DNA of 64,000 nucleotides. Source: Porphyrobacter sp. SLTP (GTDB lineage Bacteria > Pseudomonadota > Alphaproteobacteria > Sphingomonadales > Sphingomonadaceae). The position numbers were made by a program, and so were the translations under genes. How positions within the stretch are numbered: position 1 is the stretch's first letter; every line of letters begins with the position of its first letter. The notes under the pieces were generated by a model that did no database searches, had not been told where the DNA came from, and saw nothing but the letters and a program-made list of their open reading frames with translations. Where the stretch lies: assembly GCF_009905735.1 (NCBI RefSeq), contig NZ_JAAALE010000013.1:1-64000 (forward strand). The letters run 5' to 3'. Below, piece after piece: positions 28,429 to 45,776 of this stretch.

Positions 28429-28432
28429 CGGC

Positions 28433-29518
28433 CTAGAGCTTCCCGTCGGCGGCGAGTTGCATATAGGTCGGATCGAAGCGCAAGGTGATCGCGGCCTTGT
28501 CACCCAGGGTCTTGCCGCCCGGGAACTCCATCCCAACCGCATCGGCCGAACGGGCACCTTGGCCGAACAGGCCTTGAGCAAAGCTGAAATCGCGCACGCG
28601 GGTCATGGTGGTGACCAGATCGGGCGAGGCCATTGCCATCAGCGCCGCCTTGGGATCGGCGTAGAGGAAGGTGGTGGCGAGCTGGCCTTCGAATTCCTCC
28701 GGCGTTGTCCCCGCCAGCTTCGCCATCGCGGCGCGGGCGGCAGCGCCCTCGGCATCCTGCCGGGCCATCAGCGTCATCGTTTCGTACCAGATCCCCGCCA
28801 ATGCCTTGCCGAGATTGGGGTTCGCCTTCAGCACCGCCGTATCGACCACCATCAGGTCAAGAATCTCACCCGGGATATCGGCCGAGGTGAACACAGCCTT
28901 CGTGCCAGCGACACCCTTCATCGTGGTCACCTGCGGGTTCCACGCCACTGCCGCAGTCACATCCGGAGCGCTGAAGGCGGCGGCGATATCGGCGTCGGAC
29001 GTGTTGACCGTCTTCACGTCGGTCAGCTTCATGCCAGAGGTCTCGAGCGCGCGGGCGAGCAGGTAGTGCGAGACCGAAAGCTCGGCGAGGTACACCTGCC
29101 GCCCCTTGATCCCCGCTACAGAATCCGCGCCCTTGAGCAGCACCGCATCATTGCCGTTGGAATAATCGCCAAGGATGATCGCCGAGGTGTCCTTGCCGCC
29201 CGCCGCCGGAATCGTCAGCGCGTCCATGTTGGCCACGGTCACGCCGTCCAGCTTGCCAGCGGTGTATTGGTTCACGCTCTCGATGTAGTCGTTGACCTGC
29301 ACGAAGGTGATCTTGACGCCGTACTTGTCTTCCCACTTCTTCACGATTCCGGCCTGCTGGGCATAGGGCCAAGGCATCCATCCAGCATAGATCGACCAAC
29401 CGATGTTGAAGTCGGTGCGGGGCGCGGATGCGTCCTCCTCGCTGCCCGAACAGGCCGTCACCGCAAGGGCGAGCGCGATAAGCAGGAAGCGGGCCGCGCG
29501 GCGGGCCAAGTGGCGCAT
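28433..29518 (-). CDS. ABC transporter substrate-binding lipoprotein (NMT1/SsuA type)
   Basis: A 361-residue exported binding protein. The start at 29518 follows GGGGA and opens a lipoprotein signal (LLIALALAVTACSGSEED, lipobox with Cys). The mature region shows the periplasmic-binding layout NIGWSIYAGWMPWPYAQQAG and VNDYIESVNQYTAGKLDGV. It is the first gene of the operon that continues through permease, ATPase, regulator, UAAP1, UAAP2, carboxylase, hydrolase, kinase and response regulator. The ligand is inferred from context to be guanidine, urea or a related compound. Confidence 0.88.
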   Translation of the reverse strand: MRHLARRAARFLLIALALAVTACSGSEEDASAPRTDFNIGWSIYAGWMPWPYAQQAGIVKKWEDKYGVKITFVQVNDYIESVNQYTAGKLDGVTVANMDALTIPAAGGKDTSAIILGDYSNGNDAVLLKGADSVAGIKGRQVYLAELSVSHYLLARALETSGMKLTDVKTVNTSDADIAAAFSAPDVTAAVAWNPQVTTMKGVAGTKAVFTSADIPGEILDLMVVDTAVLKANPNLGKALAGIWYETMTLMARQDAEGAAARAAMAKLAGTTPEEFEGQLATTFLYADPKAALMAMASPDLVTTMTRVRDFSFAQGLFGQGARSADAVGMEFPGGKTLGDKAAITLRFDPTYMQLAADGKL

Positions 29519-29581
29519 GATTCGTCCCCTATGTTGCGGGTGCGAACATCCCCTCGTTTGCTGCGTTTGTCTATGGGGAAT

Positions 29582-29607
29582 TATTACGATTGATTGCAAA
29601 AGTAATA
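29582..29607. promoter_or_regulatory. second operator-like dyad TATTAC-N14-GTAATA in the divergent promoter
   Basis: Half-sites at 29582-29587 and 29602-29607 are identical in sequence and spacing to those at 26815-26840. The dyad is 64-89 bases before the binding-protein ATG on the minus strand and 87-112 bases before the lipoprotein ATG on the plus strand, so it could control both. The gap also has no sign of a guanidine riboswitch. Confidence 0.7.
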
Positions 29608-29693
29608 TGCGCAAGGTTGCGTCAGTCTGGCAGGCATTGTGCCCTTGCGGCGCTCCTCTCCTTTCCCTGCCATGCGTGGAGGCTCAGAGACCC

Positions 29694-30779: not shown

Positions 30780-33314
30780 TTAGAACTTGTAACCGAACTC
30801 CACCCCGAAGCGCTGACGCGCACCCGGCGAGATGAACGATCCGCCGAACTCGACCGCGGTGATGACCTCGTTCAGATACTTCTCGTTGAACAGGTTTTCA
30901 GCATAGGCCGTGATCGACCAGCGCTTCGCATCCAGCCCGACGCGCAGATCAAACACACTGAAGGTGTCGCGCTGCGAAACCGAGTAATCGGCATCGCCCA
31001 CGAAGGCCGGCAGCGCCAGCGCCGAACCCGGCAGCAGCCCGCTGAACAGCGTCGGGTTGGGATCATCCTGCAACGTGTGGAACCACGTCGGGCCGGTGAT
31101 GCGGTAATCCGCGCGGGTGACGAAATCGATGCTGTCCGAAACCGGCAGATCAAGCTGCGTCCCGAAGTTCAGGGTGTAATCGGCGGTATAGGGCGACTTG
31201 TTGCCCACCGTCACCGGGCGCGAGGCGTTTTCGAGGATTTCGCTCTCGGTCACGTTGCCCGAACCGAACACCGTCCAGCCATCAAGGATTTCTGCCGACA
31301 GGTTAAGCTCGGCGCCGTATAGCTCGACCTCATCGATGTTCGACACCACGCGGAGCAGGCCGAAGCCGCCCACGAAGAATTCGAAGAACTGCATGTCTTC
31401 GACCTTGGTGTAGTAGCCCGCCAGATCGAAGGTCACTGCGCCGTCCAGCAGCGTGCCCTTCACGCCCGCTTCGAAGGCGCTGGAGACTTCCTTGCGGTAC
31501 TGGTCGTCAATCAGCACGTTGGTGCCGATGAAATCGTTGAACGCGGAATCGACGATTGCGGCCGAGCCCTGGTTGTTGAACCCGCCCGATTTGAAGCCGA
31601 TCCCCCAGTTGCCATAGAGGTTGATGTCGTCGGTCAGTTCATACCGCAGCGAGATTTTGGGCTGGAACTGCTTGAAGGTTTCCGATTTCGGCGCAATCGG
31701 CTGAACCGCGCCGCCCACGACGGTCTGGCCGGGGTTGATCGGCCCGCCCGTGATCGGATCGAACACCGCCGGCACAAGGCTGGACACCTGACGGTCCTCA
31801 ATGTCGTAACGGCCCGCAAAGCTGACGTTGAAGCGATCGGACACATCGGCATCGATGGACGCGAAGGCCGCATAGACGTCGGTCTTGAACGCATCGTGGT
31901 AAAGCTGCGTGGTCGGGTTGTCCGATCCCGGCGCGTTATACAGCTCGCGGATGATGCCGCGGCCAAGGTCCGCCCCAAGGCTCACCCCAACCTCGCGGTC
32001 GATGTGGAGGTAATACGCGCCGACCTGCCAGTTGATCGCGCCGTCCCCATTCGAGGCGAGGCGGATTTCGCCGCTGATGTCTTCCTGCTTGCGGATCTGG
32101 AACTGGGTGCCGTCACAGGTGGTCGGGCTGTAGGGGCCGAAAGTCGAACCATTGACCGGATCGAAGATGAACGGGACCGGGTTATTGCCGATGAAGGTCG
32201 GCTGGTTCAGCGGGAAGCCGGTCAGCGCGGCGGTGCTGGCAAAGCAGGCGTTGGACGCCGCCACCGATGCCGGTGTCGCGCCGGGGAAGGTGAAGCGGGC
32301 AAAGTCGGCCGAGGTGCTGTCTGCAGTGAGCGACTGGTCGACATCGCTGTAGAGCACCCATGCGGTCAGCGTGGTGCTTTCAAACTCATGCTCGACCTTG
32401 GCCGAGGTTTCGAAGGTCACCTGATCATTGGTCGGGCGAATGTTCGAATAGAAACCGAAGGGATGCTCGTTCACATCTTCGAAGAACGCCGGGTTCACCG
32501 CCGCAAAGTTGGGCAGGTGGAAGCTGGCGTTGAAGTTGATCGAAGCGCCGCGCAGGTCCGCATAGCGCGCCTTCACGTCGAGCTCGGTGTTCGGCCCCAG
32601 CTGCGCCACGAAGCGCCCGTCGATGCCGAAGACTTCCTGATCGTCGATTGTCTTGGAATTGCCGAGGAAGCTGTTGCGGAAGAAGCCATCGGTGGTCGAA
32701 TAATTGGCCGAGAGCACCAGCCCCGCGGTGTCGCCGATCGGGGTCGAGATGAAGCCATTGGCAAGGTAGGTGTTGTCCTGCGCCGCGCGGACCAGCATCC
32801 CGCCTTCCAGCGCATCGCCGGGCTTCAGCGTTTGCAGCACAATCGCGCCCGCCGCAGCATTGCGGCCATAGAGCGCGCCTTGCGGACCTTTCAGGATTTC
32901 GACCTGGCGCAGCGTGCCCTGGTTCTGGTTCAATTGCGCGGTGTTGGTCTTGAGGATTCCGTCGACCACCAGCGCGACCGAGCTTTCCGCGTCGCGCGCG
33001 CCGTTGATGCCGCGAATGTTGATCTGGGTGTCGCCCGCTTCGGCGGTGCCGGTGACGATGGTGACGCCCGGCGTCAGCTGGATGAAGTCATCCGCGCGCT
33101 GCACCCCGGTCTTGGCGAGCGTTTCCGCGCCGAACACGGTGACGGCGGCGGGGACGTCCTGCAAGCTTTCCGACTGGCGGCGAGCAGTGACGATGATCCC
33201 GCCTTCCTCCTCGGCAGCAGGTTCAGAGGCGGGGGCGTCCTGCGCCAGAGCGGGCGAGGACAGGGCAATGGCGCCGAGCGCCGCGCCAGAAGCAAGAACC
33301 AAACGGACATTCAT
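30780..33314 (-). CDS. TonB-dependent outer-membrane receptor
   Basis: An 844-residue receptor. A signal peptide (MNVRLVLASGAALGAIALSS, cleaved after ALAQ) is followed by a TonB-box-like IIVTARRQ, the plug domain with LQDVPAAVTVFGAETL and INIRGINGARDA, and a long beta barrel ending in the aromatic residue FGVEFGYKF. It takes up a substrate across the outer membrane. It is the last gene of the operon racemase-like, NTF2-like, NTF2-like, receptor; the whole arm shares an operator with the Hyu arm, so it likely imports the pathway substrate. Confidence 0.9.
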   Translation of the reverse strand: MNVRLVLASGAALGAIALSSPALAQDAPASEPAAEEEGGIIVTARRQSESLQDVPAAVTVFGAETLAKTGVQRADDFIQLTPGVTIVTGTAEAGDTQINIRGINGARDAESSVALVVDGILKTNTAQLNQNQGTLRQVEILKGPQGALYGRNAAAGAIVLQTLKPGDALEGGMLVRAAQDNTYLANGFISTPIGDTAGLVLSANYSTTDGFFRNSFLGNSKTIDDQEVFGIDGRFVAQLGPNTELDVKARYADLRGASINFNASFHLPNFAAVNPAFFEDVNEHPFGFYSNIRPTNDQVTFETSAKVEHEFESTTLTAWVLYSDVDQSLTADSTSADFARFTFPGATPASVAASNACFASTAALTGFPLNQPTFIGNNPVPFIFDPVNGSTFGPYSPTTCDGTQFQIRKQEDISGEIRLASNGDGAINWQVGAYYLHIDREVGVSLGADLGRGIIRELYNAPGSDNPTTQLYHDAFKTDVYAAFASIDADVSDRFNVSFAGRYDIEDRQVSSLVPAVFDPITGGPINPGQTVVGGAVQPIAPKSETFKQFQPKISLRYELTDDINLYGNWGIGFKSGGFNNQGSAAIVDSAFNDFIGTNVLIDDQYRKEVSSAFEAGVKGTLLDGAVTFDLAGYYTKVEDMQFFEFFVGGFGLLRVVSNIDEVELYGAELNLSAEILDGWTVFGSGNVTESEILENASRPVTVGNKSPYTADYTLNFGTQLDLPVSDSIDFVTRADYRITGPTWFHTLQDDPNPTLFSGLLPGSALALPAFVGDADYSVSQRDTFSVFDLRVGLDAKRWSITAYAENLFNEKYLNEVITAVEFGGSFISPGARQRFGVEFGYKF

Positions 33315-33351
33315 GGGACGGCTCTCCTGAAGAGGATTGAGAGATAGGCGA

Positions 33352-33762
33352 TCAGACGAGGACGTTGGCCCCGCTCATGTAGACATAGACTTCCTGGAAC
33401 TTCGGGCCGTCCGCACCGGGGCGCAGTCGCCAGAAATTGGTGTTTTCCAGCAACGTCACCTGCCCGGCTGCATCATGCAGTTCGGCGGTGAAGCTCGCCG
33501 TGATGCGGCCATTGGCTTCGTCTACCGTGCAGGTGAAATCGCGGTGGATGATGGTTTCGTAGGCGCCGAAGAAATCTTCGAACATCCGGCGGATTTCGGC
33601 CTTGCCGGCGTGGCGCGTGAAAGCGGTCTGGACGCAGAACAGCGCGGTGTCATGGAAGCAGTCGAGCGCGCCTTCCATGTCCTTGGCATCGACGCGGGCG
33701 AAGTATTTGTTCAGCGCAAAGTCGATCAGCTCGGCGCGCGAGAGAGTGGGTTCGTACTGCAT
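33352..33762 (-). CDS. NTF2-like/SnoaL-fold protein (second of a pair)
   Basis: A 136-residue cone-shaped NTF2-fold protein with the usual start ALNKYFARVDAKDMEGALDC and C-terminal VYVYMSGANVLV. It shares overall layout and the VYVYMSG ending with the upstream 143-residue paralogue, so the pair arose by duplication. NTF2-like proteins range from hydrolases and isomerases to ring-hydroxylating subunits and ligand carriers; no firm catalytic set is visible. The ATG overlaps the preceding stop, so both are translated together. Confidence 0.78.
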   Translation of the reverse strand: MQYEPTLSRAELIDFALNKYFARVDAKDMEGALDCFHDTALFCVQTAFTRHAGKAEIRRMFEDFFGAYETIIHRDFTCTVDEANGRITASFTAELHDAAGQVTLLENTNFWRLRPGADGPKFQEVYVYMSGANVLV

Positions 33763-34193
33763 CAGACGTCCCCTTCTTTCAGCAGGTTGTCACCCGACAT
33801 GTAGACATAGACGCGGTGGAACAACCGATCCTTCAAGTAGAAGCGGTTGCAATTTTCATACCGCAACTCCTCGCCCCCGTTGGGAGTGATCAGCACGGTG
33901 AACTGCGAGCAGATCGCGTTCGTCTCCGGGTCGGCGGTGTGGACGAAATTGCCGTGCCAGATGCTTTCAAAGTCGGCGAACAGCTTCACGAACATCGCCC
34001 GGATCGCCTCGCGGCCCTGATGGACGGTGTTGCTGGTCACCTCAGTCAGGATGGCATCCGGCGTGAAGCAATCGAGCACCTTGTCCATGTGCTTGTTATC
34101 GACCCCGTCGAAATACCGCTTGGTGACGATATCGACATAGACCGGATAGGGCAGCGCGGTCTGGCCCGACCCGCCCTCTTGCCACTCACTCAT
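33762..34193 (-). CDS. NTF2-like/SnoaL-fold protein (first of a pair)
   Basis: A 143-residue protein of the NTF2 superfamily: VTKRYFDGVDNKHMDKVLDCF, AIRAMFVKLFADFESIWHG, and a C-terminal strand pair ending RVYVYMSGDNLL. It is paralogous to the next gene. The start overlaps the stop of the racemase-like gene (ATGA). A role in the pathway of this island, for example as an isomerase or carrier, is inferred only from the operon. Confidence 0.78.
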   Translation of the reverse strand: MSEWQEGGSGQTALPYPVYVDIVTKRYFDGVDNKHMDKVLDCFTPDAILTEVTSNTVHQGREAIRAMFVKLFADFESIWHGNFVHTADPETNAICSQFTVLITPNGGEELRYENCNRFYLKDRLFHRVYVYMSGDNLLKEGDV

Positions 34194-34936
34194 CAGTACC
34201 AGCCCTTTCGGATATCGGCGTGCTTGGGCACTTCGGGTGCGGGAAACGCTTTCTTGGAATGGGTCATCCCCAGTTCGATCAGCGTTTCCAATTGCTTGTA
34301 GGCGACCTGCCCGGGGTTGATCACCGGCACCGGCAGTTCGCTTTGCAGATAGGTCGCCGACTGGTGCATGGTGGTCGAACCCAGCACGATCACGTCCGCG
34401 CCATCTTCATTGATGGCGCGCATGGCCTCAGCTTTCAGCTTGGCGAAGACGACCTCTTCCTTGCCTTCAAGCAGTTCGGTCACGTCAGGCCGCGTGTCGA
34501 TTGACCGGACCGATGCGCAGCGATGGTCCCAGCCGTGCTGGTTCAGCACCTTTTCGTAGAGCGGGAACCACTGCGGCCACATGGTGATGACGCTGAACTT
34601 CTTGCCCAGCATCATCGCGGCGGCAAAGCTCGCCTCGCCAGGGCCAACGACGGGGATGTTGAGAGCCGAGCGCAGCGGCCACAGCCCCGAATCGCTGACC
34701 GTGTCGATCAGCACTCCGGCGTAGCCTTCATCCTCTGCCGTCACCCCAGCCTGGAACACCGTCCAGTCCATCAACAGCGTATCGTGATAGGAATCGCCGA
34801 GCGCCGCGCCCCAGCGCACCGCTTCGAAGGTGGGCGCGAAGCCCGGGCGCACGAAATCGGCCGGAAGCTGCTGCGCGCGATTGGCGACGCCTGCTTCGTC
34901 CATTGCGATCGGTACGATGACCTTGATACGCTTCAC
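34193..34936 (-). CDS. Asp/Glu/hydantoin racemase-fold protein lacking both catalytic cysteines
   Basis: A 247-residue protein of the cofactor-independent racemase superfamily. The two catalytic loops, normally ACxxDPGL and LGCAGM, read LIDTVSDSGLWPLR and VIVLGSTTMHQSA, so the cysteines are replaced by Thr and Ser. The only cysteine, in HRCASV, is elsewhere. Normal two-base racemisation is therefore unlikely; a decarboxylase, isomerase or lyase role, or a binding role, is more likely. It is the first gene of the minus arm of the divergent island and its promoter carries the ATTGTATACAAA operator. Confidence 0.8.
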   Translation of the reverse strand: MKRIKVIVPIAMDEAGVANRAQQLPADFVRPGFAPTFEAVRWGAALGDSYHDTLLMDWTVFQAGVTAEDEGYAGVLIDTVSDSGLWPLRSALNIPVVGPGEASFAAAMMLGKKFSVITMWPQWFPLYEKVLNQHGWDHRCASVRSIDTRPDVTELLEGKEEVVFAKLKAEAMRAINEDGADVIVLGSTTMHQSATYLQSELPVPVINPGQVAYKQLETLIELGMTHSKKAFPAPEVPKHADIRKGWY

Positions 34937-34968
34937 GGCACTCCCCTGTTGCCCTGGTTCGCGTGGTT

Positions 34969-34980
34969 ATTGTATACAAA
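34969..34980. promoter_or_regulatory. GntR/FCD operator ATTGTATACAAA, minus-arm promoter
   Basis: A near-perfect palindrome with core TTGTATACAA at 34970-34979, 33 bases before the ATG of the racemase-like gene. An identical 12-base copy lies before the HMG-CoA-lyase-like gene on the other side of the gntR gene. FCD-class GntR regulators bind such short palindromes of the TNGTNNNACNA type. Confidence 0.8.
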
Positions 34981-35133
34981 ACCATCTCGTCAAGTGCATA
35001 ACTGAATTGCCGTGACAAGGCTGATGGGGTGTGTTCTTGCCGCCGCACAGGCTTGCGACTGGCGTCGGACGGCCTAGAACAGGAAGGGCATGATCATCCC
35101 CCGCACCTCCCCCCTCCCCCGGACCACAGCCGC

Positions 35134-35805
35134 ATGAGCCGCGCATCCGAACAGGCCTATGCCAAGATCCGCTCGCATCTGATGAGCGCGGCGTTGAAGC
35201 CCGGCGAACAGCTCACCGAAGATCAGCTTGCGCAGATCACCGGGGTCAGCCGTACGCCTGTGCGTGAAGCGGTGCGGCGGCTGGAGGATGAATTGCTGCT
35301 GGTGCGCAGCGATACCAAGCGATTGTTCGTGGCCGATTGGAGCCGCGACGATATCGAGGAGATGTTCGCACTGCGCCAGATGCTTGAATGCCACGCGGCG
35401 GAGCGCGCCGCCCAGCGCCTTTCCCGAGAGCAGATCGGCGACCTGGAGGCGATCAACCGCGCTTTGAAGGCCGCGATCGAACAGCCCGAACCCGACGTCG
35501 TGCGCTTTCTCGAAGCCAACCGCGCCTTCCACGAAGTGATCATCGAAGCGGCCCATTCGCCGCGTTTGGGGCAGTTGCTGGGCCGGCTGGTTGAAGCGCC
35601 GGTGGTGCTGCGGACGGCACGCACCTATTCGCAGGACGACCTGCGCCAATCAGCCCGCGATCATGACGAGTTGATCGCCGCTTTTGCTGCCCGCGATCCC
35701 GATTGGGCCCGCGCGGTGATGGGCAGCCACTTGCGCCGCGCCTTCCACACCTTCGCCAAGACGGTTGGCCCGCCAGCGCCCCGCTATGGTAACGGCAAGG
35801 CGTAA
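35134..35805 (+). CDS. GntR family regulator, FCD subfamily
   Basis: A 223-residue regulator with an N-terminal winged helix (AYAKIRSHLMSAALKPGEQL, then VSRTPVREAVRRLEDELLL) and a C-terminal FCD ligand domain that starts DIEEMFALRQMLE and contains histidines suitable for metal binding (ANRAFHEVIIEAAHSP). It sits between two divergent catabolic operons, each with the same operator sequence, and is the evident local regulator. The start at 35134 gives the normal family N-terminus; the longer open frame upstream lacks homology. Confidence 0.88.
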   Translation: MSRASEQAYAKIRSHLMSAALKPGEQLTEDQLAQITGVSRTPVREAVRRLEDELLLVRSDTKRLFVADWSRDDIEEMFALRQMLECHAAERAAQRLSREQIGDLEAINRALKAAIEQPEPDVVRFLEANRAFHEVIIEAAHSPRLGQLLGRLVEAPVVLRTARTYSQDDLRQSARDHDELIAAFAARDPDWARAVMGSHLRRAFHTFAKTVGPPAPRYGNGKA

Positions 35806-35863
35806 CAACGCACGTTCCCGGCCCGCGGTTCCAGCCGAACTTCCCGACCCAAGCATGATTGCA

Positions 35864-35875
35864 ATTGTATACAAA
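35864..35875. promoter_or_regulatory. GntR/FCD operator ATTGTATACAAA, plus-arm promoter
   Basis: A second exact copy of the 12-base sequence, with palindromic core TTGTATACAA at 35865-35874, lies 52 bases before the ATG of the HMG-CoA-lyase-like gene. Two identical copies at the two arms of the island strongly suggest binding by the regulator encoded between them. Confidence 0.8.
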
Positions 35876-35926
35876 CCCGGTAATTGACCTACCGAAGCTT
35901 ACCGCATCAGCAACAGGCGATTCATC

Positions 35927-36847
35927 ATGTCAGGCCCAAAGTCCGTCTGCGCGATCGAACTGGTCGAAGTGGGCCCGCGCGACGGGTTGCAGAACGAACC
36001 CGACATTATTTCGACCGAAGTGAAGCTCGACCTCATCAGCCGCATGATCGGCTACGGTGCGCGGCGGCTGGAGGTGGCGAGCTTCGTCCATCCCCAGCGC
36101 GTCCCGCAAATGGCCGATGCCGAGGCGGTGATCGCGGGCCTGCCGGATCGGAGCGACTGCACCTATATCGGCCTCGTCCTCAACAAGCGCGGCGTGATGC
36201 GCGCGCTGGCCACCCGCGAAAATGGCGCCCGCGGGGTTGATCAGGTCGGCTGCGTCATCGTCGCCAGCGATACCTTCGGTCAGAAGAACCAGGGGCAGAC
36301 GATTGCGGAAGGCATCGCCGAAACCCGCGCCATGCTGCGCTTCGCCCGCGCGGAGGGAATGCGCGCGCAGGTCACCATCAGCGCCGCGTTTGGCTGCCCG
36401 TTCGAGGGCGAGGTGAAGCACGAAACGGTGCTCGCCATCGCGGAGGAAATCGCCGCCGAAGCGCCTGAGGAAATCGCGCTGGCCGATACCATCGGCGTCG
36501 GCACGCCGTGGGAGGCGGGCGAATTGTTCGGCAAGCTGGGCGAGACGCTCGGCGGCACAATCCCGATGCGCGCGCATTTCCATAACACGCGCGGCACCGG
36601 CATTGCCAATGCGTGGGAGGCTTACAAGGCGGGCGTGCGCGTGTTCGATGCCTCGCTCGGTGGCCTCGGCGGCTGCCCCTTTGCCCCGCGTGCGACCGGG
36701 AACATCGCGACCGAAGACCTCATTTACATGATGGCACGTTCCGGGGTGGACACGGGCATCGATCTCGCAGCCGCGATTGCGGCCAACAAGTGGTTTGCGG
36801 ATGTGCTGGGGCGCGAATTGCCCTCGGCCGTTGCGCGCGCAGCATAG
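35927..36847 (+). CDS. hydroxymethylglutaryl-CoA lyase family protein
   Basis: A 306-residue TIM-barrel lyase of the HMG-CoA lyase group. The N-terminal VEVGPRDGLQNEP provides metal and catalytic residues, HFHNTRGTGIANAWEA is the metal-binding His pair, and SLGGLGGCPFAPRATGN holds the catalytic cysteine of the family signature. It would cleave a 3-hydroxy-3-methyl-acyl-CoA-type intermediate. It is first in a five-gene plus-strand operon with HyuA, HyuB, a CoA transferase and an amidohydrolase, where a CoA thioester made by the transferase could be its substrate. Confidence 0.87.
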   Translation: MSGPKSVCAIELVEVGPRDGLQNEPDIISTEVKLDLISRMIGYGARRLEVASFVHPQRVPQMADAEAVIAGLPDRSDCTYIGLVLNKRGVMRALATRENGARGVDQVGCVIVASDTFGQKNQGQTIAEGIAETRAMLRFARAEGMRAQVTISAAFGCPFEGEVKHETVLAIAEEIAAEAPEEIALADTIGVGTPWEAGELFGKLGETLGGTIPMRAHFHNTRGTGIANAWEAYKAGVRVFDASLGGLGGCPFAPRATGNIATEDLIYMMARSGVDTGIDLAAAIAANKWFADVLGRELPSAVARAA

Positions 36848-36863
36848 AGCATAAGGACACAGC

Positions 36864-38921
36864 ATGACGTACAGGTTGGGTGTTGATGTGGGCGGGACGT
36901 TTACCGACCTGCTGCTGTTCGACGAGGCGAGCGGCGCGTTCTGGCGGCACAAGACGCCGTCGACCCCGCATGATTCCTCGGAAGGCATCCTGACGGGCGT
37001 GAAGGCGATCATGGCGCAGGCGGGCATCACCGCCGAGGACATCACCTATTTCCTGCACGGCACCACCGTCGCCACCAATGCCGTGCTGGAAGGCAAGGGC
37101 GCAAAGGTCGGCCTCGTCACCACGCAGGGCTACCGCGACATCATGCAGATCGCGCGCAGCTTCGTGCCCGGCGGGCTTGCTGCATGGATCGTGTGGCCTA
37201 AGCCGCAGCCGCTCGCGCGCTTGGAGCACACGGTCGAAGTGCCCGGCCGCATGGATGCGCAGGGCCGCGAGGTCGCCCCGCTGGATGAAGACGCGGTGCG
37301 CGCGGCTTTGCGCAAGCTTAAGGGTGACGGGATCGAGGCGCTGACCGTCTCGCTGATGAACGCCTACTTGAACGGCGCGCACGAGGCCCGCATCGGCGAA
37401 ATCGCGGCGGAAGAACTGCCCGGCATCCCCGTCTCGCTCTCCCACGAAGTCCTGCCCGAAATGCAGGAATACGAACGCACGCTGTCCACCGTCGCCAACG
37501 CGGCGGTGCGCCCGGTGGTGAGCAAGTATGTCTCGAACTTGCGTGACCGCTTGGCGACCGAGGGCTTCAAGGGCCGCTTGTCACTGCTGCGCTCAGACGG
37601 CGGCTTGATGTCGAGCCAGAAGGCCGAGGAACACCCGGTCAACATCCTCATGTCCGGCCCTGCGGGCGGGGTCACCGGCGCATTGTGGGTGGCGAAGAAT
37701 GCGGGCTTCGAGAACATTCTGACGCTCGATGTCGGCGGCACCTCCACCGATGTCGCGCTGATCCAGGGCCTCGAACCGCGCCGCCAGCGCACCACCGAAG
37801 TGGGCCACCTGTCGGTCCGTGCCTCAGCGCTCGACGTGAAGACCGTGGGCGCAGGCGGCGGGTCGATTGCCCACGTGCCGCAGCTCACCGGCGCGCTACG
37901 CGTCGGGCCGGAGAGCGCGGGCGCTGTCCCCGGCCCGGTGGCCTACAACAAGGGCGGCACGCTCCCCACAGTGACCGACGCCAATGTGGTGCTCGGCTAC
38001 CTGCCTGAAGACCTGCTCGGCGGCAGCTTCAAGCTCGACCGCGAAGGCGCGAAGGCGGCGGTGCAGACCATCGCCGATGCACTGGGCGTCACACTGATGG
38101 AAGCCGCGCGCGGGATCATCGACATCGTTAACGAGAATATGTTTGGCGCGCTGCGGATGATCAGCGTGCAGCAGGGCTACGACCCGCGCGAGTTCGCGCT
38201 GATGGGCTTTGGCGGCGCGGGGCCGCTCCACGTCAATGCGGTCGCCCGCCTGATGGGAAGCTGGCCCGCGATCTCGCCCGTCTCCCCCGGCGTGCTGTGC
38301 GCCTTGGGCGATGCCACCACCCGGATGCGCACCGAAACCGCGCGCAGCTTCTCGCGCCTCGCCAAGGACACCAGCATCGCCGATCTCGTCGCGGTCCTGG
38401 ATGAAATGGCGGCGCAGACGCGCAGTGAATTGCTGGCGGACGGCATCCCCGAGGATCAGATCACCTCGCTGTTCGAAATCGACGTGCGCTATGCCGGGCA
38501 AGCCTTCGAAGTGCCGCTGACGATCACGCAGGATATTCTTCAGACAGACGGGATCGCCGGCATCCTCGCTCGCTTTGACGAGGAGCACCTACGCCTCTTC
38601 ACCTTCAACATGGATACCCCGCACGAGATCGTGAACCTGCGCGCAGTGGCTCAGGGGCAGGCCCCCGCCCTCCCCGCTGCCGAGCTGCCCAAGGGCGACA
38701 GCGATCCGTCAGCCGCCAAGATTCGCGACCACACGGTGTGGATCGACGGGACGGAACGCGCCGCGGTGATCTACGACCGCGCGAAGCTGCGGCAGTGCGA
38801 TGTCATCCCCGGCCCGGCGATCATCACCGAAATGGATTCGACCACGCTGGTCGAACACGATTGCACCGCACGCGTTGACGCTGTGGGCAACATCCTCATC
38901 ACTCTGACAGCGAAGGGCTAA
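36864..38921 (+). CDS. hyuA: hydantoinase/oxoprolinase subunit A family protein
   Basis: A 685-residue ATPase of the actin-like fold, starting RLGVDVGGTFTDLLLFDE and carrying TTVATNAVLEGKGAKVGLV. These match the HyuA half of ATP-dependent hydantoinases, 5-oxoprolinases and acetone/acetophenone carboxylases. It acts with HyuB, the next gene four bases on, in ATP-driven opening of a cyclic amide or carboxylation of a ketone. Which of these applies cannot be read from sequence. Confidence 0.9.
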   Translation: MTYRLGVDVGGTFTDLLLFDEASGAFWRHKTPSTPHDSSEGILTGVKAIMAQAGITAEDITYFLHGTTVATNAVLEGKGAKVGLVTTQGYRDIMQIARSFVPGGLAAWIVWPKPQPLARLEHTVEVPGRMDAQGREVAPLDEDAVRAALRKLKGDGIEALTVSLMNAYLNGAHEARIGEIAAEELPGIPVSLSHEVLPEMQEYERTLSTVANAAVRPVVSKYVSNLRDRLATEGFKGRLSLLRSDGGLMSSQKAEEHPVNILMSGPAGGVTGALWVAKNAGFENILTLDVGGTSTDVALIQGLEPRRQRTTEVGHLSVRASALDVKTVGAGGGSIAHVPQLTGALRVGPESAGAVPGPVAYNKGGTLPTVTDANVVLGYLPEDLLGGSFKLDREGAKAAVQTIADALGVTLMEAARGIIDIVNENMFGALRMISVQQGYDPREFALMGFGGAGPLHVNAVARLMGSWPAISPVSPGVLCALGDATTRMRTETARSFSRLAKDTSIADLVAVLDEMAAQTRSELLADGIPEDQITSLFEIDVRYAGQAFEVPLTITQDILQTDGIAGILARFDEEHLRLFTFNMDTPHEIVNLRAVAQGQAPALPAAELPKGDSDPSAAKIRDHTVWIDGTERAAVIYDRAKLRQCDVIPGPAIITEMDSTTLVEHDCTARVDAVGNILITLTAKG

Positions 38922-38925
38922 ACCC

Positions 38926-40824
38926 ATGCCGGCTCGCATCATCGAACCCAACACCACCCCGTTCCAGAAAATCGCCATCGACCCGGTGACGCTCGACATC
39001 ATCGAGAACGCGCTGCGCAACGCCCGCATCGAAATGGACGCGACGCTGGTGCGCACCGCCATGTCGCCCGGCATCCGCGAACAGGGCGACGCCTTCCCGC
39101 TGATCTCGGACCCCGCCGGCAAAATGATCGTCGGCCAGTTCGGCAGCTTCATCGACGGCTTCCTCAAGCAGTTCGATGGCACGATTGAGGACGGGGATAT
39201 GATCTTCCTGTCCGATCCCTATTCCTGCGGCGGCGCGGTAAGCCACTCGAACGACTGGCTGGTGCTGCTCCCCGTGTTCAAGGACGGCCGCCTGCTCGCC
39301 TACACTGCGATGTTCGGCCACCAGAGCGACATCGGCGGATCGGTCCCAGGCTCGATGCCCATCGGCGCGTCGTCGATCTTCGAGGAAGGCGTGCGCATCC
39401 CGCCCGTCAAGATCTGGAAAAAGGGCGAATACAACGAAGACCTGATGAAGCTGGTGATGCACCAGACCCGCAAGCCCGACTGGTGCCAGGCCGACCTTAA
39501 CGCGCTCATCGCCTCCTGCCGCGTCGCCGCGCGCCGGGTGGTCGAGATGGCCGACCGCTTCGGCGATGACGTTTACGTCTCCGCCACGCAGGAGCTGCTC
39601 GCACGCAACCACCGCGCGATGAAGGCGCTGCTGGCGATGGCGGTGGCCGAGGAGCCGGTGAGCTTCGAGGATTACATCTGCGACGACGGCAAGGGCTATG
39701 GCCCCTACAAGATCCGCTGCACGATGTGGCGCGACGGCGACAAGGTGATCCTCGATTTCGAGGGCACCGATCCGCAGTCGGCGGCATCGATCAACTTTTT
39801 CCTCAATGAAAACATGTTCAAGATGTTCTTCGGCATCTACATGATCATGGTCTTCGATCCGCAGATCCTGTTCAATGACGGGTTCTACGATCTGATCGAG
39901 GTGCGCATTCCGTCGGGCTCGCTGCTGAAGCCGCACTTCCCCGCCGCGCTTTCGGGCCGCACCCATGCGCTGGGGCGCATCTTCGACATCTTGGGCGGGT
40001 TGCTCGGCCAGAAAACGCCGGAATTCCTCAACGCTGCGGGCTTCTCCTCCAGCCCGCACCTGTTCTATTCGGGCTGGGACAGCCGCGAGGACGGGACGCG
40101 CAACTGGTTCCAGCTGTTCCAGATCGGCTTCGGCGGCATCCCGGGGCGTCCGCTGGGCGACGGGCCGGACGGGCACTCACTGTGGCCGGGCTTCACCAAC
40201 GTCCCCAACGAATTCCTCGAACGCTACTTCCCCTTGCGGATCGAACGCTATGCCACCGCGCCCGATAGTGGCGGAGCGGGCCTGCATCGCGGGGGCAATG
40301 GCATCCACATGACCTACCGCTTCCTCGCCGATGGCGAGATCGCGATCCATGACGACCGCTGGTTCGTCCCGCCCTGGGGCGTCAATGGCGGGCATCCCGG
40401 CAAGCGCGCGCGCAAGGTGCTCGAACGGGCCGATGGCTCACAGGAAATCGTCGGCAACAAGGTCGAAAGCGTCGCGGTGAAGGCGGGCGATCTGCTCCAC
40501 TTCATCACCTGGGGCGGCGGCGGCTGGGGCGACCCGCTCGCGCGCGATCCGGAGCTGGTCGGCCTCGAAATCCGGCAGGGCCTCGTCACGGCTGAAGGCG
40601 CGCGCGCCTATGGTGTTGTTGCGGACGGAAACGGTGCGGTCGACACCGCTGCCACCGAAGCGCTGCGTGCCGAAATGACCAACTCGCGCGGGGAACTGCC
40701 GCTGTTCGACTACGGCCCGGGCATCGATGCCCTGCGCGCGAACTGCGAGGCCGAGACCGGCCTTCCTGCCCCGATCCAGCCAGTCTGGAACACTGTCCCC
40801 GGAATGCGCGAGGCAGCAGAATGA
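38926..40824 (+). CDS. hyuB: hydantoinase/oxoprolinase subunit B family protein
   Basis: A 632-residue protein of the HyuB family, with IDPVTLDIIENALRNARIEM, DGDMIFLSDPYSCGGA and the C-terminal glycine-rich WGVNGGHPGKRARKVLE and ITWGGGGWGDPLARDPE segments. It forms the second subunit with HyuA. The stop overlaps the CoA transferase start by four bases. The length and motif order are normal for the family. Confidence 0.9.
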   Translation: MPARIIEPNTTPFQKIAIDPVTLDIIENALRNARIEMDATLVRTAMSPGIREQGDAFPLISDPAGKMIVGQFGSFIDGFLKQFDGTIEDGDMIFLSDPYSCGGAVSHSNDWLVLLPVFKDGRLLAYTAMFGHQSDIGGSVPGSMPIGASSIFEEGVRIPPVKIWKKGEYNEDLMKLVMHQTRKPDWCQADLNALIASCRVAARRVVEMADRFGDDVYVSATQELLARNHRAMKALLAMAVAEEPVSFEDYICDDGKGYGPYKIRCTMWRDGDKVILDFEGTDPQSAASINFFLNENMFKMFFGIYMIMVFDPQILFNDGFYDLIEVRIPSGSLLKPHFPAALSGRTHALGRIFDILGGLLGQKTPEFLNAAGFSSSPHLFYSGWDSREDGTRNWFQLFQIGFGGIPGRPLGDGPDGHSLWPGFTNVPNEFLERYFPLRIERYATAPDSGGAGLHRGGNGIHMTYRFLADGEIAIHDDRWFVPPWGVNGGHPGKRARKVLERADGSQEIVGNKVESVAVKAGDLLHFITWGGGGWGDPLARDPELVGLEIRQGLVTAEGARAYGVVADGNGAVDTAATEALRAEMTNSRGELPLFDYGPGIDALRANCEAETGLPAPIQPVWNTVPGMREAAE

Positions 40825-42002
40825 GCGCGCTTCAAGGGATCAAGGTTGTCGAAATGGGCCAGCTTCTGGCAGGCCCGTTCTGCGGGCAATTGCTCGGCGA
40901 TATGGGCGCGGACGTCGTCAAGATCGAGCCGCCGGGCGCGGGCGATCCGATGCGCAACTGGGGTCAGGGCGACGAGAAGGTGCAGTGGGAAGTCATCGCC
41001 CGCAACAAGCGCTCGGTCACCTGCAACCTGCGCGTGCCGGAAGGTCAGGCGCTCGCCAAGCGGCTGATTGCCGAAGCCGATGTGCTGATTGAGAACTTCA
41101 AGCCCGGTACCCTTGAACGCTGGGGCCTCAGCCCGGCCGAGCTTCACGCGGTGAACCCCGGCCTGATCATCGCCCGGATGTCCGGCTATGGGCAGGACGG
41201 GCCGTACTCCGACCGCGCCGGGTTCGGCGGGATTGGCGAGGCGATGGGCGGGTGGCGCTACATCGTTGGCGAACCCGACCGTCCGCCGAGCCGCATGGGC
41301 ATTTCCATCGGTGACACCCTGTGCGCAACCTATGGCGCGCTGGGCGTGCTCGCTGCGCTGCACCACCGCGAGAAGACCGGCGAGGGTCAGGTGGTGGACT
41401 CCGCGCTCTATGAAGCCGTGTTGCAGGTGATGGAGGGGCTGGTGCCCGAATATGACCGCAACGGCGTGATCCGTGAGCGTTCGGGTTCGGTGCTCAAAGG
41501 CATCGCCCCGTCCAACGTCTACACCTGTAAGGATGGCAGCTACATGATCGGCGCCAATGGCGATGCGATCTTCGCGCGGCTGTGTCAGGCGATGGGCCGC
41601 CCCGAACTGTCGAGCGACGAGCGCTATTCCTCGCATATCGCGCGCGGCATCCATCAGGACGAGCTCGACGCGCTGATCAATGACTGGACCGGCACGCTCA
41701 CCGTCGACGAGGTCGATGCGCTTATGATCGAGTATTCGATCCCCGCCGGCCGGGTCTACCGCGCGCCCGATATGCTCGCCGATCCGCATTTCCAGGCGCG
41801 CGAGGCGATCATTGAGGTCGAGACGCAGAACCGTGGGCGGATCAAGATGCAGAACGCCTTCCCGAAGCTCTCCAAGACCCCTTCGACCATTCGCCGCCCT
41901 GCCCCTGCCGCGCCGGGTCAGGACAATGCCGAGGTCTTCGCCGAGCGGCTCGGTCTGGATGCCGCCGAGCTCTCGCGGCTGGCAGAAGCGGGGATCATCT
42001 GA
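40821..42002 (+). CDS. CaiB/BaiF family class III CoA transferase
   Basis: A 393-residue enzyme with the N-terminal GIKVVEMGQLLAGPFCGQLL, DMGADVVKIEPPGAGD, and the loop containing the catalytic aspartate in RMGISIGDTLCATYGALGV. Class III enzymes move CoA between carboxylic acids through an aspartyl-CoA anhydride. In this operon it could activate the acid released by ring opening so that the HMG-CoA-lyase-like enzyme can cleave it. It overlaps its neighbours on both sides by one to four bases. Confidence 0.89.
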   Translation: MSALQGIKVVEMGQLLAGPFCGQLLGDMGADVVKIEPPGAGDPMRNWGQGDEKVQWEVIARNKRSVTCNLRVPEGQALAKRLIAEADVLIENFKPGTLERWGLSPAELHAVNPGLIIARMSGYGQDGPYSDRAGFGGIGEAMGGWRYIVGEPDRPPSRMGISIGDTLCATYGALGVLAALHHREKTGEGQVVDSALYEAVLQVMEGLVPEYDRNGVIRERSGSVLKGIAPSNVYTCKDGSYMIGANGDAIFARLCQAMGRPELSSDERYSSHIARGIHQDELDALINDWTGTLTVDEVDALMIEYSIPAGRVYRAPDMLADPHFQAREAIIEVETQNRGRIKMQNAFPKLSKTPSTIRRPAPAAPGQDNAEVFAERLGLDAAELSRLAEAGII

Positions 42003-42637
42003 TGAGCGGCCCCTCGGCATCCGACAATTACGCCGGGGTGTACGAGGGCCGGCTCCAGCCGGGGTCGCGCCCGGCGCTGCTGATCGTTGATGTGGTGGTC
42101 GCCTACCTCACCGAAGGTTCGGCGCTGTTCATGGAGACCGCCGCTGCCGCGAAAGATGCGAACCGGCGCTTGGCCCAAGCGGCGCGCGCGGCGGGGGTGC
42201 CGGTGGTTTTCACCAACGTCCAATACAAGCCCGATGGCTCGGATGGCGGGGTGTTCTATCGCAAGGCCCCGGTGCTGAAAGCGTTTGTCGAGGGTTCACC
42301 GCTTGGGGCCTTTCCCGATGATCTGACCCCCGCACCGGGCGAGCGGGTGTTCACCAAGCAGTACCCTAGCGCCTTTTTCGGCACCGGCCTCGCTGACGTG
42401 CTCCATGCCGACGGGATCGATACGCTGCTGATCACCGGCTACTCCACCTCCGGCTGCGTCCGGGCGAGCGCGCTTGACGCGATGCAACACGGCTTTGTCC
42501 CGCTGGTGGTGCGCGAGGCCTGCGCCGACCGCCACCCCGCCCCGCACGACGCCAACCTGTTCGACCTTCAGGCCAAATATGCCGAGGTCATCTCCGAGGC
42601 CGAAGCACGGGCGGTGATTGCCGCGCACGCTGCTTGA
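42002..42637 (+). CDS. isochorismatase-fold amidohydrolase (N-carbamoylsarcosine amidase-like)
   Basis: A 211-residue cysteine hydrolase. The catalytic triad is visible as Asp in ALLIVDVVVAY, Lys in FTKQYPSAFFGTG and Cys in GYSTSGCVRASALDAMQHGF. Relatives remove carbamoyl groups or open cyclic imides, which suits a position downstream of hyuA and hyuB. The start overlaps the CoA transferase stop by one base. The substrate is inferred only from neighbours. Confidence 0.87.
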   Translation: MSGPSASDNYAGVYEGRLQPGSRPALLIVDVVVAYLTEGSALFMETAAAAKDANRRLAQAARAAGVPVVFTNVQYKPDGSDGGVFYRKAPVLKAFVEGSPLGAFPDDLTPAPGERVFTKQYPSAFFGTGLADVLHADGIDTLLITGYSTSGCVRASALDAMQHGFVPLVVREACADRHPAPHDANLFDLQAKYAEVISEAEARAVIAAHAA

Positions 42638-42738
42638 TCGAAACCAGCGATACTGGCCACCCGCTCTTTTGGGCTTGTGCGCGACGGTCTGGGCCTTCAA
42701 GTAACGCCGCAGCGGGCATCAACAGGGAGAAGCGCCTC

Positions 42739-44055
42739 GTGGCATTTGCAAAGTCGAGGCGATGGGCAATCGCCGGTCTGACGGGAACCGCCCTCACCGG
42801 CATCGCTCTCATAGCGAGCCCTGTGGCAGCGCAGGAACGCCCGGTTGCCTTCACCGGCGCGCGCATCCTGACCATGGCGGGCGAACCGGTCGAGAACGGC
42901 ACAATCGTGATCAAGGATGGCAAGATCGTCGCGGTCGGCGCCAATGTCGCCATTCCCGCTGATGCCGAGCGCCGCGCGGTTGATGGCCGGGTGATCATGC
43001 CCGGCATCGTCGACACCCATTCGCATATTGGCCAAGTCGCAGGCGCGGACGGCTCTGGCCCGATCCAGCCCGAAGTCCGCGCATTGGATTCGATCAACCC
43101 CTTCTCGACCTCGATCGACAAGGCGCGCGCCGGCGGGGTCACCACCGCCAACATCATGCCCGGATCGGGCCACCTGATGAGCGGGCAGACCTTCTACATG
43201 AAGCTGCGCAAGGGCCGCACCGTCGATGACATCGCGTTCGAGATGAAGGGCGGCGCGGCGCTCGGCGGCATGAAGATGGCGAACGGGACCAACCCGATGG
43301 GCGGCAGCGGCTTCCCCGGCACGCGCGCCAAGTCCGCGTCGCTGGTGCGCGAGCAGCTGACCGAGGCCAAGGCCTATTGCGCCGGCGACCGCAAGAAGCG
43401 CGATCTGGGCAAGGAAGCGCTGTGCGAGGTGCTCTCGGGCGAGCGGCTGGTGCATTTCCACACCCACCGCGCCGATGACATCATGACCGTGCTGCGGCTC
43501 AAGCAGGAATTCGGTTTCAGCGTGCTGATCCAGCATGGCACCGAAACGTGGAAAGTCGCCGAGGAACTGGCCAAGGCCGGGGTGCCGGTATCGAACATCA
43601 CGCTGGATGCACCGGGCGGGAAGCTCGAAACGGTCGACCTGCGGATGGACAATGCCGCCATCCTCGAACGCGCGGGCGTGCTCGTCTCGATCCATTCGGA
43701 CGACGCAATCGTGGATTCACGCATGATGCTGCGCGAGGCCGCGCTGGCGGTGCGCGGCGGGATGAGCCGTGATGGCGCCTTGCGGGCGCTCACCATCAAC
43801 GGGGCCAAGCAGATGCGGCTCGATGCCCGCATCGGCTCGCTCGAAGTGGGCAAGGATGCCGACTTCCTCGTGCTCGATGGCGATCCGTTGTCGACCTACA
43901 CCCACGTGCTCGAAACCTGGGTGGAGGGCGACAAGCTGTTCGATCGCAGCCTGCCTGAGGATTTGTTGATGGCCACGGGAGGCTTTGGCGCGGGCAGCCC
44001 GATGGAAGCCTCGCACCACCACTGGGAAATTGCCGAAGCGGAAGGGCACAACTGA
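42739..44055 (+). CDS. exported amidohydrolase family protein
   Basis: A 438-residue metal-dependent hydrolase of the imidazolonepropionase-like group. The GTG at 42739 is favoured: GGGAGAA lies before it and it opens a signal peptide (AGLTGTALTGIALIASPVAA, cleaved near AQE). Metal ligands are present as GIVDTHSHIGQ, HFHTHRAD and HSDDAIVDS. An upstream ATG overlapping the preceding stop would add about 35 residues of poor quality. The next gene is a paralogue with a degraded metal site and overlaps by one base, so the pair probably forms one complex in the periplasm. Confidence 0.85.
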   Translation: MAFAKSRRWAIAGLTGTALTGIALIASPVAAQERPVAFTGARILTMAGEPVENGTIVIKDGKIVAVGANVAIPADAERRAVDGRVIMPGIVDTHSHIGQVAGADGSGPIQPEVRALDSINPFSTSIDKARAGGVTTANIMPGSGHLMSGQTFYMKLRKGRTVDDIAFEMKGGAALGGMKMANGTNPMGGSGFPGTRAKSASLVREQLTEAKAYCAGDRKKRDLGKEALCEVLSGERLVHFHTHRADDIMTVLRLKQEFGFSVLIQHGTETWKVAEELAKAGVPVSNITLDAPGGKLETVDLRMDNAAILERAGVLVSIHSDDAIVDSRMMLREAALAVRGGMSRDGALRALTINGAKQMRLDARIGSLEVGKDADFLVLDGDPLSTYTHVLETWVEGDKLFDRSLPEDLLMATGGFGAGSPMEASHHHWEIAEAEGHN

Positions 44056-45287
44056 TGCGTATCGCCGGATATTGCCTTGCCGCCGCCAGCGCACTCGCGC
44101 TTGGCACAGCGGTCCACGCGCAGGACATCGCGATCAAGGGCGGCGAGGTTCACACCATGGCCGGCCCTGCCATCACCGACGGGGTGGTGGTGATCGATGA
44201 CGGCAAGATCGTCGCCGTTGGCCCCGCCGCCAGCACACCGATCCCCGAGGGGTTCACCGTGATCGAGGCCAAGGTCGTCACCCCCGGTCTGGTCGATGCC
44301 CGCACCGTGGTCGGGCTGGCGGGCTATCTCAATCAGGAGCATGATCAGGACCAGCTGGACGAAAGCGCCCCGGTGCAGCCGCAGCTGCGCGCAATTGACG
44401 CCTATAATCCCGGCGAGGCGCTGGTGGCATGGCTGCGCGGGTTCGGGGTCACCACGATCCACACCGGCCACGGCCCCGGCGCGCTGGTTTCGGGCCAGAC
44501 GATGATCGCCAAGACGGTCGGCAACACCGCCGATGCCGCGGTCATCGTGCCCCGCGCGATGGTCGCCGCCAATCTCGGGTCCGGCGCGCTGGCCGAGGGC
44601 GGCAAGGCCCCCGGCACCCGTGCAAAGCAGATCGCAATGCTGCGTCAGGCGCTGCTCGCCGCCAAGGAAGGCGAAGCGCCCAAGCCCGCGAAGAAGGGCG
44701 AGGAAAAGTCCGGCCCTGACAAACCGCCCAGCCTTGACGTGCAGGTGATGCGCGATGTGCTCGCCCGCAAGCTGCCGCTGCTGATCACCGCCCACCGCGC
44801 GCAGGACATCATGAGCGCGCTGCGGCTGCGTCAGGAGTTCGGCATTGATGTCGTGCTCGACGGGGCGGCTGAGGCCTATCTGCTGACGGCCGAGATCAAG
44901 GCTGCCGGGGTCAAGGTCATCCTGCACCCGCCCATGGCGCGGCAATATGGCGAGTTCGAAAACGCCAGCTTCACCACCGGCGCAGCGCTGCGCGCCGCGG
45001 GCATTCCGTTCGCCTATCAGTCGGGGTACGAAGGCTACGTGCCCAAGACGCGGGTGATCCTGTTCGAAGCCGGGGTCGCGGCGGCCAACGGGCTGGCGTG
45101 GAATGACGCGCTGGCGAGCATCACCATCGATGCGGCGCGGGTGATCGGGCTGGAAAAGCGGGTCGGTTCGCTTGAAGTCGGCAAGGACGGCGATGTCGCG
45201 CTGTTCGACGGCGATCCCTTCGAATACGCCTCGCACACGGTGGGCGTGGTGATCGACGGCAAGGTGGTCAGCACCGCCACGCAGTGA
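44055..45287 (+). CDS. exported amidohydrolase-fold protein with degraded metal site
   Basis: A 410-residue paralogue of the preceding gene with its own signal peptide (YCLAAASALALGTAVHAQ). Where active members have DTHSHIG it reads DARTVVGLAG, and the catalytic HSDD motif becomes QSGYEGY. The middle motif LLITAHRAQDI is kept in part. It is therefore probably a non-catalytic partner or has a changed chemistry. The C-terminal KRVGSLEVGKDGDVALFDGDP is a normal amidohydrolase ending, so the protein is full length rather than decayed. Confidence 0.84.
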   Translation: MRIAGYCLAAASALALGTAVHAQDIAIKGGEVHTMAGPAITDGVVVIDDGKIVAVGPAASTPIPEGFTVIEAKVVTPGLVDARTVVGLAGYLNQEHDQDQLDESAPVQPQLRAIDAYNPGEALVAWLRGFGVTTIHTGHGPGALVSGQTMIAKTVGNTADAAVIVPRAMVAANLGSGALAEGGKAPGTRAKQIAMLRQALLAAKEGEAPKPAKKGEEKSGPDKPPSLDVQVMRDVLARKLPLLITAHRAQDIMSALRLRQEFGIDVVLDGAAEAYLLTAEIKAAGVKVILHPPMARQYGEFENASFTTGAALRAAGIPFAYQSGYEGYVPKTRVILFEAGVAAANGLAWNDALASITIDAARVIGLEKRVGSLEVGKDGDVALFDGDPFEYASHTVGVVIDGKVVSTATQ

Positions 45288-45761: not shown

Positions 45762-45776
45762 GCTCGGCTCCTGATC

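Follow-up and report, generated by a model that had tools for sequence, protein, structure and literature searches.

The window analysed here is a stretch of 64,000 nucleotides from Porphyrobacter sp. SLTP (contig NZ_JAAALE010000013.1), and the system in question is an island of ten genes arranged in two divergent arms around a central GntR/FCD regulator (Table 1). Arm A, on the minus strand, contains a protein of the Asp/Glu/hydantoin-racemase fold (RACE), two SnoaL-like proteins (NTF2b and NTF2a) and a TonB-dependent receptor, with 1-bp overlaps and one 37-bp gap at the junctions. Arm B, on the plus strand, runs in the order HMGL, an enzyme resembling 3-hydroxy-3-methylglutaryl-CoA (HMG-CoA) lyase, HyuA, HyuB, CoA transferase and amidase; two of its junctions have gaps, 16 and 4 bp long, and the other two overlap, by 4 and 1 bp. 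All ten genes were confirmed where the first-pass annotation had placed them, and they match the families it named. For the TonB receptor, all NCBIfam models remained below cut-off. Our analysis suggests that the island is probably an unrecognised degradation pathway.

Table 1. Genes and operator copies of the island (positions in the window; aa, amino acids).
Feature	Position	Strand	Length (aa)	Place	Evidence or remark
TonB-dependent outer-membrane receptor	30780..33314	-	844	arm A	PF00593 + PF07715
NTF2a, SnoaL-like	33352..33762	-	136	arm A, optional module	PF12680
NTF2b, SnoaL-like	33762..34193	-	143	arm A, optional module	PF12680; AF2 pLDDT 94.2
RACE, Asp/Glu/hydantoin-racemase fold	34193..34936	-	247	arm A, optional module	both catalytic cysteines absent
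Operator copy 1, TTGTATACAA	34970..34979	.		upstream of RACE, before arm A	
GntR/FCD regulator	35134..35805	+		between the arms	PF00392 + PF07729; start kept among relatives, against 35029 for the longest open reading frame
Operator copy 2, TTGTATACAA	35865..35874	.		upstream of HMGL	
HMGL, HMG-CoA-lyase-like enzyme	35927..36847	+	306	arm B	NF004283, 290.7 bits against a cut-off of 246
HyuA, ATP-binding subunit	36864..38921	+	685	arm B	PF05378, PF01968, PF19278
HyuB, metal-binding subunit	38926..40824	+	632	arm B	PF02538
Class III (CaiB) CoA transferase	40821..42002	+	393	arm B	PF02515, 424.9 bits against 23.3
CSH, isochorismatase-superfamily amidase	42002..42637	+	211	arm B	PF00857

A search for the same gene set in other genomes, which the first-pass annotation had proposed, showed that it recurs beyond chance in dozens of loci, with gene order reshuffled and content retained. 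Among the best 80 of 557 relatives of RACE, those at 91-98% identity that are named to genus level belong to Erythrobacter or Porphyrobacter, in keeping with a host genome of an Erythrobacter-type sphingomonad. Type strains with the island include Erythrobacter sanguineus and E. ramosus (L073, L081). From these 80 RACE-anchored loci 23 shorter than 19 kb were dropped, and 42 of the remaining 57 hold all seven core genes, namely those for the TonB receptor, the regulator, HMGL, HyuA, HyuB, CoA transferase and amidase. Of the other 15 loci, 11 lack the amidase alone, one lacks HMGL alone and three lack most genes. For comparison, 29 of 37 loci were taken as a HyuB-anchored, RACE-negative set (L178, L183-L188 and L192 belong to RACE-positive genomes or lie on short contigs and were not taken), and two shorter than 17 kb were dropped; all seven core genes were present in 17 of the resulting 27 loci, and the NTF2 genes in none. 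Because of the gene content of the RACE-positive and RACE-negative loci, we describe the island as a seven-gene core with an optional module of RACE, NTF2b and NTF2a. The core is found as a unit in many Sphingomonadales, in agreement with the earlier view of one unit, and the TonB receptor stays beside it in most relatives mapped. In and near the genus, some loci have HMGL, CoA transferase and amidase swapped for versions about 50-60% identical, with HyuA and HyuB at 80-98%.

The optional nature of the module is also reflected in the genome counts, which include some genomes less than 90% complete. Among 100 relatives' genomes 35 contain RACE, and among 61 sampled from the genus (own genome included) 24 do; HyuB, searched at E up to 1e-150, is present in 69 and 50 of them, respectively. 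The same HyuB marker was found in 30 of 385 class-sampled and 14 of 398 phylum-sampled genomes (own genome counted). In the genus sample RACE occurs in 24 of 50 HyuB-positive versus 0 of 11 HyuB-negative genomes (Fisher p 0.0022), and in a separate check all 11 RACE-positive genomes selected carry a HyuB homologue, which in one of them is a fragment. The first-pass annotation had counted RACE and the NTF2 proteins as part of the set; they are indeed present here, but as an add-on: 26 of the 50 HyuB-positive genomes in the genus sample have no RACE. The sampled genus is rich in aerobic phototrophs, and a link with photosynthesis was also considered; where reaction-centre genes were present, 20 of 48 genus-sample genomes had RACE, against 4 of 13 where they were absent, so no link emerged.

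The two arms share a regulatory signature. The perfect palindrome TTGTATACAA stands once in front of each arm, and the rest of the 64 kb contains no further copy even with one mismatch allowed; its expected count is 0.13, and at least two copies appeared in 1 of 100 shuffles. The first-pass annotation had postulated one shared operator; the same sequence does precede both arms, but in two copies rather than one. Island-bearing stretches from 117 related loci, 2.1 Mb in total, were searched (near relatives are among them, and some genomes are represented twice). They hold 157 copies, of which 156 are located no more than 300 bp upstream of an island gene, and the remaining one is located 304 bp before a TonB-receptor match in locus L180. 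In the same loci 19 control palindromes of equal composition occurred 0 to 5 times each. In loci where the CoA transferase is divergent from HMGL, the palindrome stands upstream of the CoA transferase in 37 of 42 cases. Since the loci are related and some genomes are counted twice, this evidence is strong but non-independent. The pairing of operator and arms is a computed result, and the GntR protein may act as the repressor of both arms, holding them off through TTGTATACAA until an intermediate binds to it.

Regarding the central enzyme, HyuA carries the ATP-site motifs DVGGTFTD at residue 8, DVGGTSTD at 289 (phosphate) and GAVPGP at 353 (adenosine), following the definitions given for caprolactamase in PMC8453981. 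Residues D55, H107, D110 and H132 of HyuB align with the CapB metal ligands D41, H99, D102 and H124, all four of which are essential in caprolactamase (PMC8453981). The nearest solved relatives of HyuA are N-methylhydantoinase and 6yra (caprolactamase), and its scores to hydrolases (475 and 391 bits) exceed those to carboxylases (318 and 240 bits). The conserved ATP motifs and the metal tetrad support the predicted ATP-driven ring opening by HyuAB, as had been suggested at first pass. HyuAB thus shares with the group of CapAB, N-methylhydantoinase and 5-oxoprolinase the two-part enzyme, the DxGGT and GxxPGP motifs and the Asp-His-Asp-His metal site, whereas its partners in the island are CoA and carbon-carbon cleavage enzymes and the caprolactamase cut-offs are unmet. 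Caprolactam, biuret, acetophenone carboxylase and siderophore labels were tried for the island and rejected, as the scores fell under the curated cut-offs.

The remaining arm B enzymes retain their catalytic residues. HMGL has R18, D19, H217, H219, C250, N259 and E263 within motifs that it shares with both solved lyases in the alignment, and we take the roles of these residues to be those known from the human enzyme. A second HMGL was not found in the own genome in a search at E up to 0.001. Formyl-CoA transferase and succinate-hydroxymethylglutarate CoA transferase are among the solved relatives of the CoA transferase, which stays under every listed equivalog cut-off (270.5 versus 750 for succinate-glutarate CoA transferase). 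The amidase has N-carbamoylsarcosine amidohydrolase as its nearest solved relative, and D30, K119 and C152, presumably the Asp-Lys-Cys triad of isochorismatase-superfamily amidases, are conserved in the alignments. It does not reach the biuret amidohydrolase cut-off (60.2 versus 370), in a model list that holds no carbamoylsarcosine entry. Amide removal, CoA activation and carbon-carbon cleavage, which the first-pass annotation had foreseen, are supported as parts of a predicted route.

RACE has the hydantoin/allantoin racemase fold, with allantoin and hydantoin racemases as nearest solved relatives. Thr79 and Ser187 occupy its catalytic cysteine positions and are invariant in 41 aligned sequences, and the motifs DTVSDSG and GSTTMH are conserved where the racemase cysteines would stand. 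The earlier term "cysteine-less" is therefore right for the catalytic pair, but not for the whole protein, in which Cys140 remains. In OpaE, C90S leaves 4.8% activity, and C199S and the double mutant at most 0.3% (PMC12661438). OpaE, like the allantoin and hydantoin racemases, is related to RACE by fold but keeps its cysteines, while RACE has both replaced. Lacking both, RACE is unlikely to be an ordinary racemase, and it marks a subfamily of the fold that is unlikely to use the known two-cysteine chemistry. NTF2a and NTF2b are 36% identical; a fold search with NTF2b returned ketosteroid-isomerase, epoxide-hydrolase and polyketide-cyclase types, which point to a broad family only and to no function.

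Relatives of the optional module also occur in other settings. Two adjacent glutathione S-transferases accompany RACE/NTF2 in some more distant relatives (L063 7075-8507, L128, L144 and L146). RACE relatives 52-56% identical stand beside paired Rieske-type oxygenase alpha subunits and small partners in L031, L148 and L152, the Rieske domain being confirmed by Pfam in L148 only. L154 and L157 hold at least two RACE copies, together with a UbiD decarboxylase, an AMP ligase and two amidases of the isochorismatase type (Pfam assignments for L154 only), a set that is possibly another N-heterocycle pathway.

Further information on the substrate comes from the partners of HyuAB homologues in other lineages. 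HMGL, LeuC, a PEPM-family lyase or PrpD lies within 9 kb of HyuB in 26 of 44 Proteobacteria loci versus 0 of 19 distant HyuB paralogues (p 3e-6), and the amidase in 27 of 44 versus 1 of 19 (p 2e-5), p values that overstate independence because the loci are related by descent and a single genome supplied 7 of the 19 control paralogues. Six of the 44 loci were chosen beforehand, being already known, and without them the partner count is 21 of 38; L035 was kept despite a HyuB only 32% identical, and p is 8e-6 without it. Of 40 newly fetched loci, L246 and L251 were assigned to the sphingomonad set. The 17 sphingomonad loci outside the genus hold HMGL (15), CoA transferase (14) and amidase (12), and LeuC, PEPM and PrpD in none. 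LeuCD, methylisocitrate-lyase-like and related partners act on unsaturated or hydroxylated vicinal dicarboxylates, not on glutarates.

The combinations vary with lineage. An alphaproteobacterial operon outside the order (L185) contains HyuA, HyuB, a methylisocitrate-lyase-like enzyme, LeuC, LeuD and amidase; the partner-type lyase does not reach the methylisocitrate-lyase cut-off (252.9 versus 354.4). L183 and L184, outside the class, hold HyuA, HyuB, amidase, LeuC and LeuD on a stretch that also carries RACE and an NTF2 gene, and LeuD adjoins a regulator with a PrpR_N domain in L183 and a look-alike, judged by eye, in L184. Loci L238, L240 and L241, all from a single family that lies outside the class, bring together the receptor, CoA transferase, HMGL, HyuA, HyuB, amidase, LeuC and LeuD, with LeuC/LeuD on the opposite strand in L241. 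L218 and L219 combine HyuAB and amidase with a methylisocitrate-lyase-like enzyme and a weak PrpD match. The own genome has one LeuC above cut-off, and its sole PEPM-family match sits in a frame of isocitrate-lyase size. As a separate observation, DUF1329, DUF1302, MMPL and YCF48-like genes lie directly upstream of HyuA in L183 (13363-19701, minus strand), and no TonB-receptor match was found in that stretch.

We infer the substrate class, the order of steps and the role of RACE and the NTF2 proteins as follows. In our view it is an evenly balanced call that the island forms a single inducible regulon for breaking down a small cyclic imide that bears substituents, most likely a five-membered one such as a maleimide, succinimide or hydroxysuccinimide. 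The TonB receptor would import the imide, HyuAB would spend ATP to open the ring to a half-amide, and the isochorismatase-type amidase would free ammonia to give a substituted dicarboxylate. If unsaturated, this acid may then be hydrated, here perhaps by housekeeping LeuCD and elsewhere by the LeuCD- or PrpD-like enzymes of the clusters. Subsequently, the CoA transferase would turn the hydroxy-diacid into a thioester, which the HMGL-type lyase may split to give an acyl-CoA together with either a 2-oxo acid or a ketone. RACE and NTF2a/b would form an optional upstream module converting another isomer of the imide or one of its precursors. If this is right, the island represents a catabolic route that has gone unrecognised and whose cleavage modules can be exchanged, and it offers a testable function for "hydantoinase/oxoprolinase" genes that are annotated by family alone.

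A number of observations, together with the shared ancestry of the loci behind the p values, weigh against the five-membered imide. A TonB receptor would be unusual for a molecule this small, and to our knowledge HMGL enzymes act on HMG-CoA, not on alkylmalyl-CoA. HyuA and HyuB score far under the caprolactamase NCBIfam cut-offs (537.9 and 220.6 bits versus 1000 each). The amidase is absent from 14 of the 57 RACE-anchored and 7 of the 27 RACE-negative loci, and L213 and L215 (HyuB 77%) have HyuAB without CoA transferase, HMGL or amidase. These two are among 18 of the 44 distant HyuB loci, several of them on short contigs, that show no hydratase or lyase partner. The PrpD matches are weak (24-29%).

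Of the other substrates that could be envisaged, a six-membered ring is unlikely in our judgement: a 3-hydroxy-3-methylglutarimide-like compound would yield 3-hydroxy-3-methylglutarate, which CoA transferase and HMGL would convert to acetyl-CoA and acetoacetate. This would suit an HMGL that passes NF004283 and has no further homologue detected in its genome, and a CoA transferase near the solved succinate-hydroxymethylglutarate enzyme. However, the LeuCD and methylisocitrate-lyase-like partners of HyuAB homologues suit vicinal dicarboxylates rather than glutarates, and the score of the CoA transferase falls short of the succinate-glutarate cut-off. Distinctly improbable is the hydantoin or ureide route, in which HyuAB would open a 5-substituted hydantoin, the amidase would take the carbamoyl group and RACE would racemise the hydantoin, despite the solved structures nearest to these three proteins (N-methylhydantoinase, N-carbamoylsarcosine amidohydrolase and allantoin/hydantoin racemases). 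The five-membered imide is favoured over hydantoin because a half-amidase and dicarboxylate partners fit it, whereas the product of hydantoin is an amino acid, and a route to it would need neither CoA transferase nor HMGL, LeuCD or the PEPM lyases. RACE also lacks both cysteines, and Cys-to-Ser exchange nearly abolishes the activity of OpaE, which has the same fold (PMC12661438). The carbamoyl branch of the first-pass annotation is thus made unlikely by the dicarboxylate hydratases and lyases that often stand beside HyuAB homologues.

HyuAB is also remotely similar to acetophenone and acetone carboxylases and might be an ATP-dependent ketone carboxylase, with the product activated to its CoA ester and then cleaved by HMGL. 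We regard this as highly improbable, given that HyuA is nearer to hydrolases than to carboxylases and that an amidase often accompanies HyuAB (27 of 44 loci). Finally, one regulator may govern two pathways, the RACE/NTF2 module acting on a compound unrelated to the HyuAB substrate. The absence of RACE/NTF2 from many core islands and the occurrence of RACE relatives beside Rieske oxygenases or UbiD would agree with this, but RACE without HyuB was never seen in the 61-genome sample and each of the 11 chosen RACE-positive genomes holds a HyuB homologue, if in one case a fragment; it therefore seems very doubtful.

A more specific proposal within the five-membered imides is that the regulon degrades maleimides derived from oxidised tetrapyrroles (heme, chlorophyll, bilins), e.g., hematinic acid or methyl-vinyl-maleimide. 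It is suggested by the recurrence of PrpB-, PrpD- and PrpR-like proteins with HyuAB in some lineages, PrpB- and PrpD-type enzymes acting on methylisocitrate-like acids, and we consider it distinctly unlikely. HyuAB and amidase would produce 2-methyl-3-alkylmaleate, and its hydration a methylisocitrate homologue. Pyruvate and an alkanoate or its CoA ester would then be released, either by an enzyme resembling methylisocitrate lyase or by CoA transferase and HMGL acting in turn; hematinic acid would give glutarate. If true, this would be a bacterial route for tetrapyrrole ring fragments, and its add-on would be an enzyme of the racemase fold working by a new chemistry that needs no cysteine.

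Concerning known systems, a full-text literature search, thin in coverage of subscription journals, returned no description of an operon with this gene set, and the first-pass claim that no characterised pathway has this composition stands to that extent. In nicotinate breakdown the maleamate amidase NicF and the maleate isomerase NicE provide a parallel, an isochorismatase-type amidase beside an Asp/Glu-racemase-fold protein with a dicarboxylate end, as in the island. PrpB, PrpD and PrpR belong to the 2-methylcitrate cycle, and a hydratase/lyase system is known for dimethylmaleate; PrpB-, PrpD-, PrpR- and LeuCD-like proteins stand beside HyuAB homologues in some lineages, with none in the window. 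Pseudomonas NS671 is said to carry a hyuA-hyuB-hyuC-hyuE cluster, which has HyuAB, a hydantoin-racemase relative and an amide hydrolase in common with the island; however, RACE lacks the cysteines, the amidase is of another superfamily, and CoA transferase, HMGL, receptor and regulator are added. Blastobacter A17p-4 reportedly degrades cyclic imides via imidase, half-amidase and dicarboxylate. The order from imide through half-amide to diacid is shared by microbial cyclic-imide pathways, including a fungal case (PMC9304392). The imidase of the fungal pathway, HxnM, is similar to a protein of the polysaccharide-deacetylase/allantoinase type (PMC9304392). It is unlike HyuAB, and for the island a substituted acid and a CoA lyase are predicted.

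The genes flanking the island were also considered. A urea-type ABC transporter (26810-29614, minus strand), whose binding protein passes a "putative urea ABC transporter" model (523.7 versus 333.9 bits), was rejected as a member, since it adjoins the island in only part of the relatives. Two amidohydrolase-family proteins (42634-45287, plus strand) lie directly 3' of the amidase and were likewise not included, having been seen among the mapped loci in L037 and L081 only. Beyond them, on the minus strand (45306-48158), the translations indicate by eye a small 2Fe-2S protein and a large molybdenum-hydroxylase-like subunit, a pair that could feed an N-heterocycle route.

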